From: Halobellus litoreus
GTDB lineage: Archaea; Halobacteriota; Halobacteria; Halobacteriales; Haloferacaceae
Direction: 5' to 3'
DNA length: 64,000 nt
Assembly: GCF_024464595.1 (NCBI RefSeq)
Contig: NZ_JANHAW010000001.1
Location: 744,001 to 808,000 of the forward strand
In this document: positions 37,184 through 42,236 of the stretch, piece by piece
Position numbering within the stretch: position 1 is the first letter of the stretch
How the letters are laid out: every line of letters begins with the position of its first letter
Translations under genes and position numbers: made by a program
The notes under the pieces: generated by a model
What the model was told of the DNA's origin: nothing
The model's database searches: none
Seen by the model: the letters and a program-made list of their open reading frames with translations, nothing else

Positions 37184-37642
37184 TCTCGGCGCTACACTTC
37201 TTTATATTCCTTATAAGCCTCCAGCGGCTGCTCCGTCTTCAACTACTCAATCGTATACGCTGTTGTGGTTTTCCACCGAGTAGTAACACGTCATCTGCAA
37301 CACCGAAAACGGCGATGTCGTCTATCACTGCCGCACCGACGGCCAATTTGTGCTTCCCATCCGAGGGCGCGCTGACTGTCCATACCTTCACACTGTCGCA
37401 TCGTCGGTTACAGAACCTCAAAAGCACCCCCGAGTTCAGTCATGAGAGTGGTCTCCAGATGTAATCGACGTACGAGGGTGTCATCGGACGGTGAGCCTCT
37501 ATTACGATGAGAAGTATGGGAACCGTTCTATGATCCCCTCTAGAAAATTAAAATACGAAAAGAACAAGTCAATTGAAAAGAATTTCAAGATCAATGAACC
37601 GGCGAACGTCAACTATGACCGTAGTCGAAGCGAGGTGACTGC
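37184..37642 (+). other. Intergenic stretch after secY, with propeller-like fragment
   Basis: A T-rich segment (about 37196-37215) may terminate the ribosomal transcription unit. On the minus strand, 37239-37427 encodes a 62-residue frame containing VWTVSAPSDGKHKLAVGAAV followed by IDDIAVFGVADDVLLLGG, whose last part resembles one blade of a PQQ-like repeat. It has no obvious promoter and is probably a gene remnant. The remainder is AT-rich and holds no gene that I can support. Confidence 0.4.
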
Positions 37643-38079
37643 GTGAGCCACGTCCCCGTAAACCGTCGGAAGCTGCTGAAAACGGTCGCTGGAGGGGCCG
37701 TACTTACCGGGACGGCGTCTGGTGCGACTCCGGACTCCGACAGCGTCGCGACAGAAAAAACGGTCTACTTCGGGGCAGGGGAGAGGGTGTATGCGGTCGA
37801 CGCCGCCACGGGGGAGTCGGTGTGGACATTCAGCCCCGAGGGAGAGTCCAGAGCCGGGGTGACGAGCAGAGAATGACGCCGTCGTTCGAACACTTTTCGG
37901 AGGGTGGTGGGATCATTCTGTTCGATGCCGACAGTCCCGGATCGATCACGGTCGAGTACGTGCTCGAGGTCGCTCCGGATGCGGAGCCCGGCGAATATTC
38001 GTTCGAACCCGACGCAATCGCCATTAACGAGCAAATGGTTCCGGTCGAGGGCATCGGTCAAGTCGTGGTGGAACGATGA
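37643..38079 (+). pseudogene. Remnant of a Tat-exported PQQ-type propeller protein
   Basis: Two short frames look like the two ends of one gene. The first (37643-37876, GTG start) has a twin-arginine signal NRRKLLKTVAGGAVLTG and one propeller repeat, TVYFGAGERVYAVDAATGES followed by VWTFSPEG, then stops. The second (37873-38079) has GSITVEYVLEVAPDAEPGEY, a beta-sandwich-like strand series. They overlap by ATGA, but the lack of any other blades suggests internal deletion plus frameshift. It may alternatively be two tiny coupled genes. Its end overlaps the next gene by four bases. Confidence 0.5.
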
Positions 38080-40451
38080 GTGAGTTTCCAATGAACCGTC
38101 GTGATTTGCTCCAGGCGACGGGCGCAGGGGTACTCGGAACTGCCGGGTTGAGCCAAGTGGATGTTGCTGAGGCATCTTCGGGTGGCGACAAAGTCTGGGA
38201 GTTCGAGGCCAACGATGTGGTAAGAGGCTCGCCAACCGTCGTCGGCGAGACAGTCTTTGCTGGAAGCGACGACGAAAATCTGTATGCAATAAATACCGCG
38301 GACGGTACAAAACGATGGTCGTACAGTACGAGCTCAAGCATTATGGCACAGATTAGAGCGGCACCGGCGGTCGTTGATGATACGGTGTATTTCGGTACCG
38401 ATATGCGCGGGTTCGGTCGTGTCTACGCCGTAGACGCCACTGATGGATCGAAAGAATGGCGATACAAGACTGGCGCTCGTGTTCGGACGTCGCCGACAGT
38501 CGTTGATGAGACAGTGTTCGTCTGTAACCACGGCGGCACCCCGAATGATCCTTCTCCGAATCTCTATGCTTTAGATGCGGATGATGGATCCAAAATATGG
38601 CAGTTTCAGACCAATGGTAATATCCAATCGTCTCCGACTGTAGTTGACGGGACGGTCTACGTCGGTTCTGACGATAGTAGCGTGTACGCAGTGAGTGCAA
38701 CCGACGGTACAGAACAGTGGTCTACCAGTCTCAGCCAGTATATGAGCGTCAGATCCTCGCCAACAGTCGTTAACGAAACCGTGTATGTCGGCCTTGCCGA
38801 ACGCGATGGAGACAGTCTCTACGCGCTGGATGCCAAGACCGGTTCAGTTCAGTGGAAAGTCAACAAGGGCGGTATTGACTCTTCTCCAACTGTGATCGAC
38901 GGAACTCTCTATATCGGTAGCTTCCTACCAGGACGAATCTATGCAGTGGATATAGACGACGGCTCCAGCCAATGGACGTACGAAACGAACGGGAGAAGGG
39001 TCTCATCGCCTACCGTCGCCGGTGATGTGGTCTACATAGGTAGTACGGATGGCGTCTTGTATGCGTTAGATAGGAGCGATGGATCAAAACTATGGACATA
39101 CGACACAGAGACTAGTTATCTTTCCTCGCCGATCGTTTCTGACGGTACGCTCTACGTCGGGAGCGGGATAGGTCGATGCTGCGAACCGGGCGATGGAGAG
39201 GGCACAGTGTATGCACTGAACGCTGGTATTGATGGCTCGAGTGAGGGCTCACGCGTCTCCCTCGGTACGCTGGGCCACCACCACACGTTCGCCGACAGAG
39301 AGCCGCCCGAACCGGACGACCCCGACGCCCCGGACCCCGATCCGGACGGCGAACTGACCGGTACGGTTAGGGACGTAGACGGGCGTCCGCGCGAGGGAGC
39401 GGCCGTCTCGATCTACGACGCGAGCGGGGACGCGGACGCGGTGCTCGCTCGCACGACGGCGGACGACGGGGAGGACGCCGGGACGTACGCGTTCCCGGAC
39501 CTCGAAACAGACGACGGGAAGACACCCGACCGGGTCCTGCTCGTCGCTCGCGAGGGAAAGTGGTTCGGCTCGGTCGAAATAGACGGATTCGCCGACCAGC
39601 TACCCTTGGAGTACGACATCGAACTGGACGGCCAGCTGCTGTTCGGTCCCGAGATCGCCGCCGATGGCCGAGAACTGAGCGTGCTGACCTGCTGGCGCCG
39701 CATCATCGAGCCGCGGCGTCAGACCGTCTTCGTCGAGGCGGTGAACGTCGCCCAGCGCGGAGCGCGACACGAGATCACGGCCGACGCCACCGATCTGACC
39801 GGCGGCGCTTTTGCCGCGACGGTGCTCGCGGACGACGTCTGGATAAACTTCGGTAGCCAAAGCGACGTCGAGGGGACGGTTCCGGGAAGCGTCGAGGTCG
39901 TCGGCCTCGATACGTCGACGGATAACGCCGAACTCGGGGACTGGCATCCGGTTCGGACGGGGGTTCCGCTGTATCCGATCGGCGGCGAGGTCGGTGCGGC
40001 GTTCGAGCGAATCTCGACCGCCGACGCCGACGTGGCCGACAGAATTGACGAGGGATTCGGAGCGATAGCGGGGATCATCCCCGGTGTCTCAGAACTCCTA
40101 ACGTGGCTGGACACGGTCGAGTGGGCGTTCGGCGAGCGCCTCGAATCCGAGGCGAGGGTGGGCGCGGACTCGGTGAGTTTCCCCGATCCGAACGACCCGT
40201 CCGCGACCCAGACACGGGTCGATCCGAACGACCACACGACTGCACAGCTCGCCTGGCGGTCGGATAACGAGACGCCCGGCGACGAAGAGGGTGCGGTGGT
40301 TATGGCCGTGCCCCTTGAATTCCAGTACGAGAAGGAACGGACGACTGTCGTGACCGTGGAGGCGGAGTGGACGCATCCGAACGCTCACGCCTCCTTCGGC
40401 GGATCCTTCGAGATCGGACCGGTCGGCGGACGAAACGGCGAGGAGGGCTGA
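38076..40451 (+). CDS. Tat-exported PQQ-type beta-propeller protein with CnaB-like and novel C-terminal domain
   Basis: A 791-residue secreted protein. Residues 1-32 are a twin-arginine signal (MNRRDLLQATGAGVLGTAGL). Residues about 34-390 contain eight repeats of the S-P-T-V-V-x-x-T-V-Y-x-G...LYALDxxDGSxxW type, so a complete eight-bladed propeller. An Asp/Pro linker (about 410-428) leads to a CnaB-like domain (GTVRDVDGRPREGAAVSIYD, about 430-515). A C-terminal domain of about 275 residues (LLFGPEIAADG, VLTCWRRI, GDWHPVRTGVPLYPIG) is unknown to me and recurs in the next gene. The propeller DNA is AT-richer than the rest, pointing to a fusion. Confidence 0.8.
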   Translation: MSEFPMNRRDLLQATGAGVLGTAGLSQVDVAEASSGGDKVWEFEANDVVRGSPTVVGETVFAGSDDENLYAINTADGTKRWSYSTSSSIMAQIRAAPAVVDDTVYFGTDMRGFGRVYAVDATDGSKEWRYKTGARVRTSPTVVDETVFVCNHGGTPNDPSPNLYALDADDGSKIWQFQTNGNIQSSPTVVDGTVYVGSDDSSVYAVSATDGTEQWSTSLSQYMSVRSSPTVVNETVYVGLAERDGDSLYALDAKTGSVQWKVNKGGIDSSPTVIDGTLYIGSFLPGRIYAVDIDDGSSQWTYETNGRRVSSPTVAGDVVYIGSTDGVLYALDRSDGSKLWTYDTETSYLSSPIVSDGTLYVGSGIGRCCEPGDGEGTVYALNAGIDGSSEGSRVSLGTLGHHHTFADREPPEPDDPDAPDPDPDGELTGTVRDVDGRPREGAAVSIYDASGDADAVLARTTADDGEDAGTYAFPDLETDDGKTPDRVLLVAREGKWFGSVEIDGFADQLPLEYDIELDGQLLFGPEIAADGRELSVLTCWRRIIEPRRQTVFVEAVNVAQRGARHEITADATDLTGGAFAATVLADDVWINFGSQSDVEGTVPGSVEVVGLDTSTDNAELGDWHPVRTGVPLYPIGGEVGAAFERISTADADVADRIDEGFGAIAGIIPGVSELLTWLDTVEWAFGERLESEARVGADSVSFPDPNDPSATQTRVDPNDHTTAQLAWRSDNETPGDEEGAVVMAVPLEFQYEKERTTVVTVEAEWTHPNAHASFGGSFEIGPVGGRNGEEG

Positions 40452-40464
40452 CTACCACAGAACT

Positions 40465-41829
40465 ATGTCGAGTGAATCCGGCGAAAGTCGTACGATGGTT
40501 TCGGGACGCGTCACCGATCCCGACGGGGAAGGGGTGGCTGGCGTCACCCTCGAACTCTATCCGTTCGGCAACGGAGCCGATGCCGAGCCGCTCCAAACTC
40601 GGACGGAATCGGACGGTACGTTCCGATTCGAGGCGTTGGCCGAGGCGGCCGCGCGCGAAGAGTACGTTGTCGAACCGGACGAGACGGTGTTGATCGCCCG
40701 CGATGGTGACTGGTTTTGGACAACTTCCGGAGACTTCGAGTCGGCGTCGACGTCGGCGCTCGAAATCACGCTCCGGAATCAACTTCTGTTCGGCCCCGAA
40801 GTCGCAGCGGACGGGAACGACCAACGGGACGAACTGAGCCTGATGACGTGCTGGCGACAGATCGACGGTACGGGGATAGAGACGCTCTTTCTCGAAGTGA
40901 CGAACGTCCGGGGAGCCGTGGACCGCGAGCCGTTCGAGATTCTCACGGACTCGACAGATCTTGACACGGGGGCGTTTTCGGTTACCGTTCCCCGCGGTGA
41001 GGTCCGGATCAATTTCGGGCCACAGACGGAGTTCGACGACGACAGCCCGCCGGCGAAGGTACTCGCACTCGAAACCGGCTCCGAGAACCCCGAACTCGCC
41101 GATTGGCATCCGATTCGAACCGGAGTTCCGCTTTTTGGAATCGGATCGGGTTACCTCGACGTATCGAGTTCCGACCCCAGCGCGGACAGTGGTCCCGAAA
41201 CGGTCGTCGAAGGCGTCGGGCGAATCGTGCACGGCCTTCCCGGAATCGGGACGGTGCTCTCGGTCGTCGACACCGTCGGGTTCGCCGTCGGGAAACAGCT
41301 CCGGAGGGAGGCGTCGTTGGGCGACGCAGACGTGGGATTCCCCGATCCGACGGACCCGGACGAGCTGGCAACGGTCGCGGATCCGAACACCCACACGTCG
41401 GCGTTGCTCGGCTGGAACGCCCCCGAGGAGACCCTCTCGAATACCGGAGCTGGGTCGGTCGTTATGATGGTTCCGATGGCGCTCAAAGGTGACGGCAGTC
41501 CCCGGGCGGCCGCGCACGCCGAGTGGTTACACACCACTGGGCGAGTGACTTTCGGCGAGGTCTTCGAGCTGACCCCGGCTAGACCCGACGGCACCTCGGT
41601 CGACGAGTCGGTAAGCACCGCCGAGGAGGGCGAGTCGGTAAGCACCGCCGAGGAGGGCGAGTCAGCGAACGGCGACAGGGCGACAGTCGACGACTACGCC
41701 GGGGAGGATGGTGTCGTCGACACCGGCGGACTGTTCGATGCAGCGGAGGACTTCGGAGCCGGGGAGATAGGTGCCGAAACGCTGGTCGAGGTGGCGACGT
41801 CGTACCGTCCGAGCCTCCCCTTCGGCTGA
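40465..41829 (+). CDS. Protein with CnaB-like and the same novel C-terminal domain, without signal peptide
   Basis: A 454-residue protein whose residues 10-105 resemble a carboxypeptidase-regulatory/CnaB beta-sandwich (VSGRVTDPDGEGVAGVTLEL), and whose residues 105-370 align with the C-terminal part of the preceding protein (LLFGPEVAADG, LMTCWRQI, RINFGPQTEF, LADWHPIRTGVPLFGIG). The tail contains a tandem 9-residue repeat ESVSTAEEG. No Tat or Sec signal is visible, so it appears cytosolic. It starts 13 bases after the propeller gene, so both are likely co-transcribed. Function unknown. Confidence 0.65.
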   Translation: MSSESGESRTMVSGRVTDPDGEGVAGVTLELYPFGNGADAEPLQTRTESDGTFRFEALAEAAAREEYVVEPDETVLIARDGDWFWTTSGDFESASTSALEITLRNQLLFGPEVAADGNDQRDELSLMTCWRQIDGTGIETLFLEVTNVRGAVDREPFEILTDSTDLDTGAFSVTVPRGEVRINFGPQTEFDDDSPPAKVLALETGSENPELADWHPIRTGVPLFGIGSGYLDVSSSDPSADSGPETVVEGVGRIVHGLPGIGTVLSVVDTVGFAVGKQLRREASLGDADVGFPDPTDPDELATVADPNTHTSALLGWNAPEETLSNTGAGSVVMMVPMALKGDGSPRAAAHAEWLHTTGRVTFGEVFELTPARPDGTSVDESVSTAEEGESVSTAEEGESANGDRATVDDYAGEDGVVDTGGLFDAAEDFGAGEIGAETLVEVATSYRPSLPFG

Positions 41830-42236
41830 CCCTCCACGGAGCACCGCGTGAGCGTGGTCGGTGGGCGAGCGCCAACCGCCGTCGGACGCATCGTCCGCTC
41901 TCGGGCCAGGAACGAACAGCGAGCCGATCCGGCCGGTGAGAATACTTCGATTCGACGAACCAATAGTGACAAGTAAACGATATTAGGTACGAACCATCGG
42001 CAGGATCCCGCTTTATATAGAATCAAGGAGAATACCCGCGGCTTGAGCCGCAGGATGAATCCGACAACTTGGAATCACAACAGATGGGCCGATACGGGCT
42101 CGTTGGAATATACGACATTCCTGACCGGTGTCGAGGGAGCCGACGTCGAAATCGGGGAGGACACGCGGAACATCTCCACGTGCATCCGAGAACCGTCGTG
42201 TTTTTGCCCGCGGATCCGGTATACTGCACCGACTGA
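41830..42236 (+). other. Intergenic stretch before the methylthiotransferase gene
   Basis: No protein gene is supported. The left half is AT-richer from about 41940 to 42030. At 42031-42060 lies a hairpin segment resembling an IS200/IS605 right end, described separately. The right part (42060-42236) is of normal composition and contains GGATCCGGTATACTGCACC about 25 bases before ATG 42237, with TATACT as the probable promoter box. Confidence 0.45.
42031..42058 (+). repeat. Hairpin resembling an IS200/IS605 (TnpB) right-end remnant
   Basis: GAATACCCGCGGCTTGAGCC then GCAGGATGAAT: the stem GCGGCT/AGCCGC (42038-42051) has a two-base loop. The haloarchaeal IS200/IS605 elements I know carry a similar sequence, GCGGCTTGAGCCGC followed by GGATG, at the end of the tnpB gene, where it forms the guide RNA 3' hairpin. 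No tnpA or tnpB gene remains next to it, so it would be a solo end. Confidence 0.4.

Follow-up and report, generated by a model that had tools for sequence, protein, structure and literature searches.

A probable accessory surface-protein locus beside secY in Halobellus litoreus, with two copies of an apparently undescribed haloarchaeal module

Beside secY in the genome of Halobellus litoreus lies a pair of genes that is probably an accessory haloarchaeal surface-protein locus, made up of an exported chimera (gene 1) and a signal-less paralogue (gene 2) that is likely a severed leftover. In the window, i.e. the 64,000-nucleotide stretch of DNA that we analyzed, gene 1 (38076-40451, 791 aa) and gene 2 (40465-41829, 454 aa) are both open, and the second begins 13 bases after the first, as an earlier note on this DNA had reported. 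Gene 1 encodes, in order, a Tat signal, an eight-blade BamB-like propeller, a CnaB-like domain and a module of ∼260 residues; gene 2 carries a CnaB-like domain, the same module and a C-terminal tail (Table 1).

Table 1. Features of the locus, with positions in the window
Feature	Position	Strand	Basis
Relic-like ORF A: Tat start and one PQQ blade, 77 aa	37643..37876	+	PF01011, 22 bits, under cut-off
Relic-like ORF B, 68 aa	37873..38079	+	ATGA overlap with ORF A and with gene 1 start
Gene 1, twin-arginine (Tat) signal region, MSEFPMNRRDLLQATGAGVLGTAG	38076..38180	+	Sequence; alignment with Tat start of L043:3634-6321
Gene 1, eight-bladed BamB/PQQ-like propeller, GC3 ∼0.54	38181..39245	+	PF13360; structure model; BamB superposition; GC3
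Gene 1, linker with DGSSEGSRV.LGTLGHH motif; GC3 step, fusion point	39246..39341	+	GC3; similar motif in other propellers
Gene 1, CnaB-like / carboxypeptidase-regulatory-like domain	39342..39617	+	PF13620, weak, E=9e-4; alignment
Gene 1, copy of ∼260-aa module	39618..40433	+	Sequence comparison
Gene 2, CnaB-like domain, no signal ahead	40465..40764	+	PF13620, E=4e-7; no upstream start codon
Gene 2, copy of ∼260-aa module	40765..41586	+	Sequence comparison
Gene 2, C-terminal tail YAGEDGVVDTGGLFDAAEDFGAGEIGAETLVEVATSYR, dockerin-like	about 41674..41826	+	Recurs at ends of other haloarchaeal proteins

Architecture and origin of the two genes

The case for export of gene 1 begins at its N-terminus, where the twin-arginine start MNRRDLLQATGAG is found and where a twin-arginine motif followed by a hydrophobic stretch (NRRDLLQATGAGVLG) can be read directly; the match to TIGR01409 is weak, its 13.4 bits falling just under the cut-off of 16.7. 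Here and for all other proteins discussed, Tat and Sec signals were called by eye. The propeller matches PF13360 with E=1e-58, and a model predicted from the single sequence, with no alignment, has a mean pLDDT of 85 and 32 strands arranged as eight four-stranded blades that superpose on BamB, the closest solved fold (TM 0.82 to E. coli BamB). Both the signal and the complete propeller that the earlier note had described are thus present. The scores against the curated models for BamB (TIGR03300, 187 bits versus a cut-off of 285) and for PQQ-dependent alcohol dehydrogenase (TIGR03075, 108 bits versus 480) are so far under their cut-offs that we consider the propeller to be BamB-like in fold, not BamB. 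Archaea are not known to have an outer membrane or a BAM complex.

Downstream of the propeller, gene 1 resembles gene 2, with 38% identity over 375 residues (E=5e-64) and 44% in the module alone, and the short motifs that had been picked out as common to the two proteins are indeed there. The two genes form a sister pair in the tree with support of 100/99, on branches of 1.05 for gene 2 versus 0.63 for gene 1. At the third bases of conserved fourfold codons, the copies are 0.35 identical versus 0.32 expected, which is saturation, and their amino-acid identity is 0.40; such retention of some 40% of residues in the face of synonymous saturation shows that constraint on both proteins persisted long after the genes had duplicated. 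Judged from sequence, the genes are sister paralogues of an old duplication, as had been proposed; the pair is missing from the other species of the genus, which makes its arrival in this genome as a pair the likeliest route.

The make-up of gene 1 is itself chimeric. GC3 is ∼0.54-0.55 in the propeller and ∼0.8-0.85 in the CnaB-like domain and module (0.81 overall), and the step, at codon ∼390, coincides with the DGSSEGSRV.LGTLGHH linker, identical or similar versions of which end the propellers of Halapricum, Natronorubrum, Natrinema and Haloplanus. The Tat-propeller part (residues 1-413) matches at 40% the direct neighbor (L043:3634-6321) of a module gene in another haloarchaeal genome, G252. 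Because of this step and of the separate close relatives of the propeller, the domain fusion suggested earlier is borne out, and gene 1 seems to have arisen when a propeller from a lower-GC source was joined to a resident-like CnaB-module part. The composition step had been overlooked in the earlier note, as had the relic-like ORFs and the gene 2 tail, to which we now turn.

Gene 2 has no signal of its own, in agreement with the first reading of this DNA: its frame stays open for 37 codons ahead of the ATG, and none of these is an ATG, GTG or TTG. The final 50 residues are matched by the C-termini of seven other haloarchaeal proteins; judged by eye, one of these has an N-terminal membrane segment and the other six have Tat- or Sec-like N-termini. 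The tail has a presumed likeness to dockerins; a search of it against Pfam gave no family and no dockerin match. We also considered whether the two genes could be a single gene split by a frameshift; the frame of gene 2 is open from 40354, but the stretch ahead of its start is non-coding-like and rich in R, S and P, and the idea was rejected.

A domain family found so far in haloarchaea

The CnaB-like domain that had been claimed for both genes is plausible, albeit weak, with PF13620 (CarboxypepD_reg / CnaB) scores of 30.8 bits for gene 2 and 19.9 for gene 1 against a gathering score of 32.3. In the homologue G133A, the same family reaches 54.8 bits, with the best stretch in the same place as the CnaB-like domain of the window genes, and a CnaB-like stretch stands before every module copy, in distant members by alignment only. 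The module itself, which the earlier note could not recognize, has no match in Pfam, NCBIfam, PHROGs, PADLOC or PDB sequences. Profile searches of whole genomes added seven copies, spread over six other genomes of haloarchaea, for a total of nine copies in seven genomes (two here, two in G133, and one each in G083, G252, G271, G784 and G055). Detection was restricted to Halobacteriales, the order of the window, and was patchy there, with the module in 5 of 392 sampled genomes of the order and 4 of 170 of the family, and in none of 16 other species of the genus by profile search; outside the order, the sole match of a phylum-wide search was to the CnaB part. The genome search was a loose first pass after which a few candidates were scored, such that very distant members may be missed. 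Protein scans of genome and viral contigs, a phage scan, and plasmid scans with gene 2 and two of three homologues returned no relative with a name; the one module match of the plasmid search is in Halobaculum limi (G271), on a 429-kb plasmid. In other words, the module is a real and apparently undescribed domain family, so far found in haloarchaea alone.

What might this module do? Its contexts are informative. Twin-arginine starts are seen on gene 1, G083, G133A, G133B, G252, G271 and G784, that of G784 with a lipobox-like TAGC, and the G055 protein, whose start is off-contig, ends in a PGF-CTERM-like C-terminus (10.3 bits versus a cut-off of 18.8). The propeller precedes the module in gene 1 and follows it in G252 and G784, and other partners include a PPC-like domain in G083 and LamG-like and CARDB-like domains in G133B (both by eye), NEW3 in G271, PKD in G055, and further CnaB-like and lectin-like parts in G133A. 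The company that the module keeps is that of exported surface proteins. Across the nine module sequences, near-invariance is limited to a Gly, a Pro, a Trp-Arg and a late Trp, and the middle of the module holds, by eye, a conserved amphipathic or hydrophobic helical part. Given that no catalytic set is conserved across the nine, a non-enzymatic surface domain with a binding or structural role is the likeliest reading. Structure prediction of the CnaB-module part from the two window copies gave a low pLDDT of 36. That the module is instead an enzyme domain, from a hydrolase or lyase that is secreted and belongs to an undescribed family, we consider very unlikely: the closest six sequences do have invariant H-P, T, N, R and E columns (HP.RTG.P, DPN) that could form an active site, but the three most distant members keep the overall pattern without most of these columns, and enzyme families in Pfam, NCBIfam and PDB sequences gave no match.

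Two further observations concern this set of genes. A Tat protein encoded close to the module gene of G784 (L056:14693-16099) is 49% like the LamG-like N-terminus of G133B, and its C-terminus recalls the module layout by eye, with no match to the module profile. A search for a defence system at the window locus gave no PADLOC match.

A variable site beside secY

The junction between secY and a MiaB-like gene (TIGR01578), at 37184-42236 in the window, is a hot spot for insertions throughout the genus. In three relatives (G005, G009, G011) the gap is 195, 195 and 66 bp, in G013, G014 and G015 it holds an ABC transporter set, and in G002 and G004 other cargo, all of it unrelated; overall, the spot is either empty or filled with one of at least four cargo types. 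Another relative in the genus has an additional copy of secY, which is partial (residues 275-488, 93%; G010:C1:59011-59652). In the window, the cargo consists of two short relic-like ORFs, gene 1 and gene 2, in that order. ORF B has no match in Pfam or PDB, and together ORFs A and B (37643-38079) are probably what a deletion left of a surface-protein gene. A mobile surface-protein locus is our best reading of the whole.

The role of gene 2

In the explanation that we favor, the gene 1 product would be exported folded by Tat, with its BamB-like propeller joined via the CnaB-like spacer to the haloarchaea-restricted, non-enzymatic module; on the outside of the cell, the module would bind a ligand or partner, with the propeller as a scaffold or as a second platform for binding. 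Gene 2 would be the sister paralogue, with CnaB-like domain, module and exported-type tail, whose export signal was lost or never present; most likely it would be a downstream piece cut off from a protein that used to be exported, and its product may no longer reach its workplace. A precedent supports this severed-piece interpretation. The gene beside the G252 module gene (L043:3634-6321) encodes an intact Tat-propeller-PKD-CARDB protein, and in Natrinema sp. SYSU A 869 (L123:4381-7121) a frameshift after the LGTLGHH linker splits its counterpart into a Tat-propeller gene and, overlapping it, a PKD gene with no signal, which shows that pairs of a propeller and a signal-less protein can be products of breakage. 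Against a mere leftover, gene 2 has kept its open frame and module motifs, so that selection must have acted on it during most of its past, and it may still be functional.

An alternative that we regard as doubtful is that gene 2 is a Tat hitchhiker, i.e. that its product, once folded, binds that of gene 1 in the cytosol, perhaps through the two modules, crosses the membrane together with it and then works outside via module and tail. Hitchhiking on Tat is established for other complexes, as described in PMC4273604. Such a route would fit a gene whose domains are elsewhere mostly on exported proteins and which sits, with its frame kept, directly behind a Tat-exported relative. An analogous pair exists in Haloplanus sp. 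GDY1, in which a Tat-propeller gene and its signal-less partner overlap, the partner encoding a NEW3 domain and a gene 2-like tail, and this pair may leave room for real partner proteins. These are, however, two cases only; most of the other propeller genes examined, on plasmids, are without a signal-less partner, the Natrinema pair is a frameshift product, and binding between gene 1 and gene 2 is putative. Separately, two tandem genes, with matches at 932668-936059 of contig C1 in G006 (L079), each encode an exported propeller, a membrane segment and a serine/threonine-kinase-like domain, in the reverse of the domain order of Streptomyces kinase-propeller proteins. A more elaborate version of co-export, in which the module is a new extracellular haloarchaeal domain family, the signal-less paralogue leaves folded with its Tat-borne sister and the tail docks the complex to another surface protein, strikes us as unlikely.

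The earlier note had proposed a surface/cytosol pair, with the same module on both sides of the membrane and gene 2 at work in the cytosol, and this idea is now improbable: gene 2 does lack a signal and an upstream start codon, and both copies were long constrained, but every other homologue with a readable N-terminus looks exported, a cytosolic partner is at odds with a module and tail otherwise mainly on exported proteins, and in no other genome were two module genes found side by side (the two of G133 lie ∼40 kb apart), so adjacency, which the note itself had proposed as a check, is not conserved; by that check the idea of a pair falls, and that of an unrecognized module holds up.

Implications and comparison with known systems

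If co-export were true, the locus would be an archaeal Tat hitchhiker outside of the redox enzymes; otherwise, we are looking at ordinary accessory surface-protein evolution. In either case, an apparently undescribed domain family is mixed freely with propellers and with Ig-like and lectin-like domains on exported proteins, and the locus offers a view of how such surface proteins are assembled, with DNA of differing composition fused and dropped into a variable site beside secY.

Several known systems can be compared with this locus. Eight-bladed BamB/PQQ-like propellers (PF13360; the haloarchaeal "PQQ-binding-like beta-propeller repeat protein") match gene 1 over residues ∼35-390, and the haloarchaeal Tat-propellers of Halapricum (45%), Natronorubrum and Haloplanus share 40-46% identity with its propeller; whereas these known proteins have PGF-CTERM-like, PKD, kinase or helical C-termini, gene 1 has a CnaB-like domain and the module instead. 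The CnaB / carboxypeptidase regulatory-like domain (PF13620) gives weak matches, located where expected, in both genes and several homologues, but here it precedes an unrecognized module, and both window proteins stay under the Pfam gathering score. The "NEW3 domain-containing protein" of Halobaculum limi (WP_277556230.1) has the same module, on which its annotation is silent, but different N-terminal domains, and this module carrier belongs to the class of modular haloarchaeal surface proteins built with NEW3/CARDB, PKD and PGF-CTERM parts.
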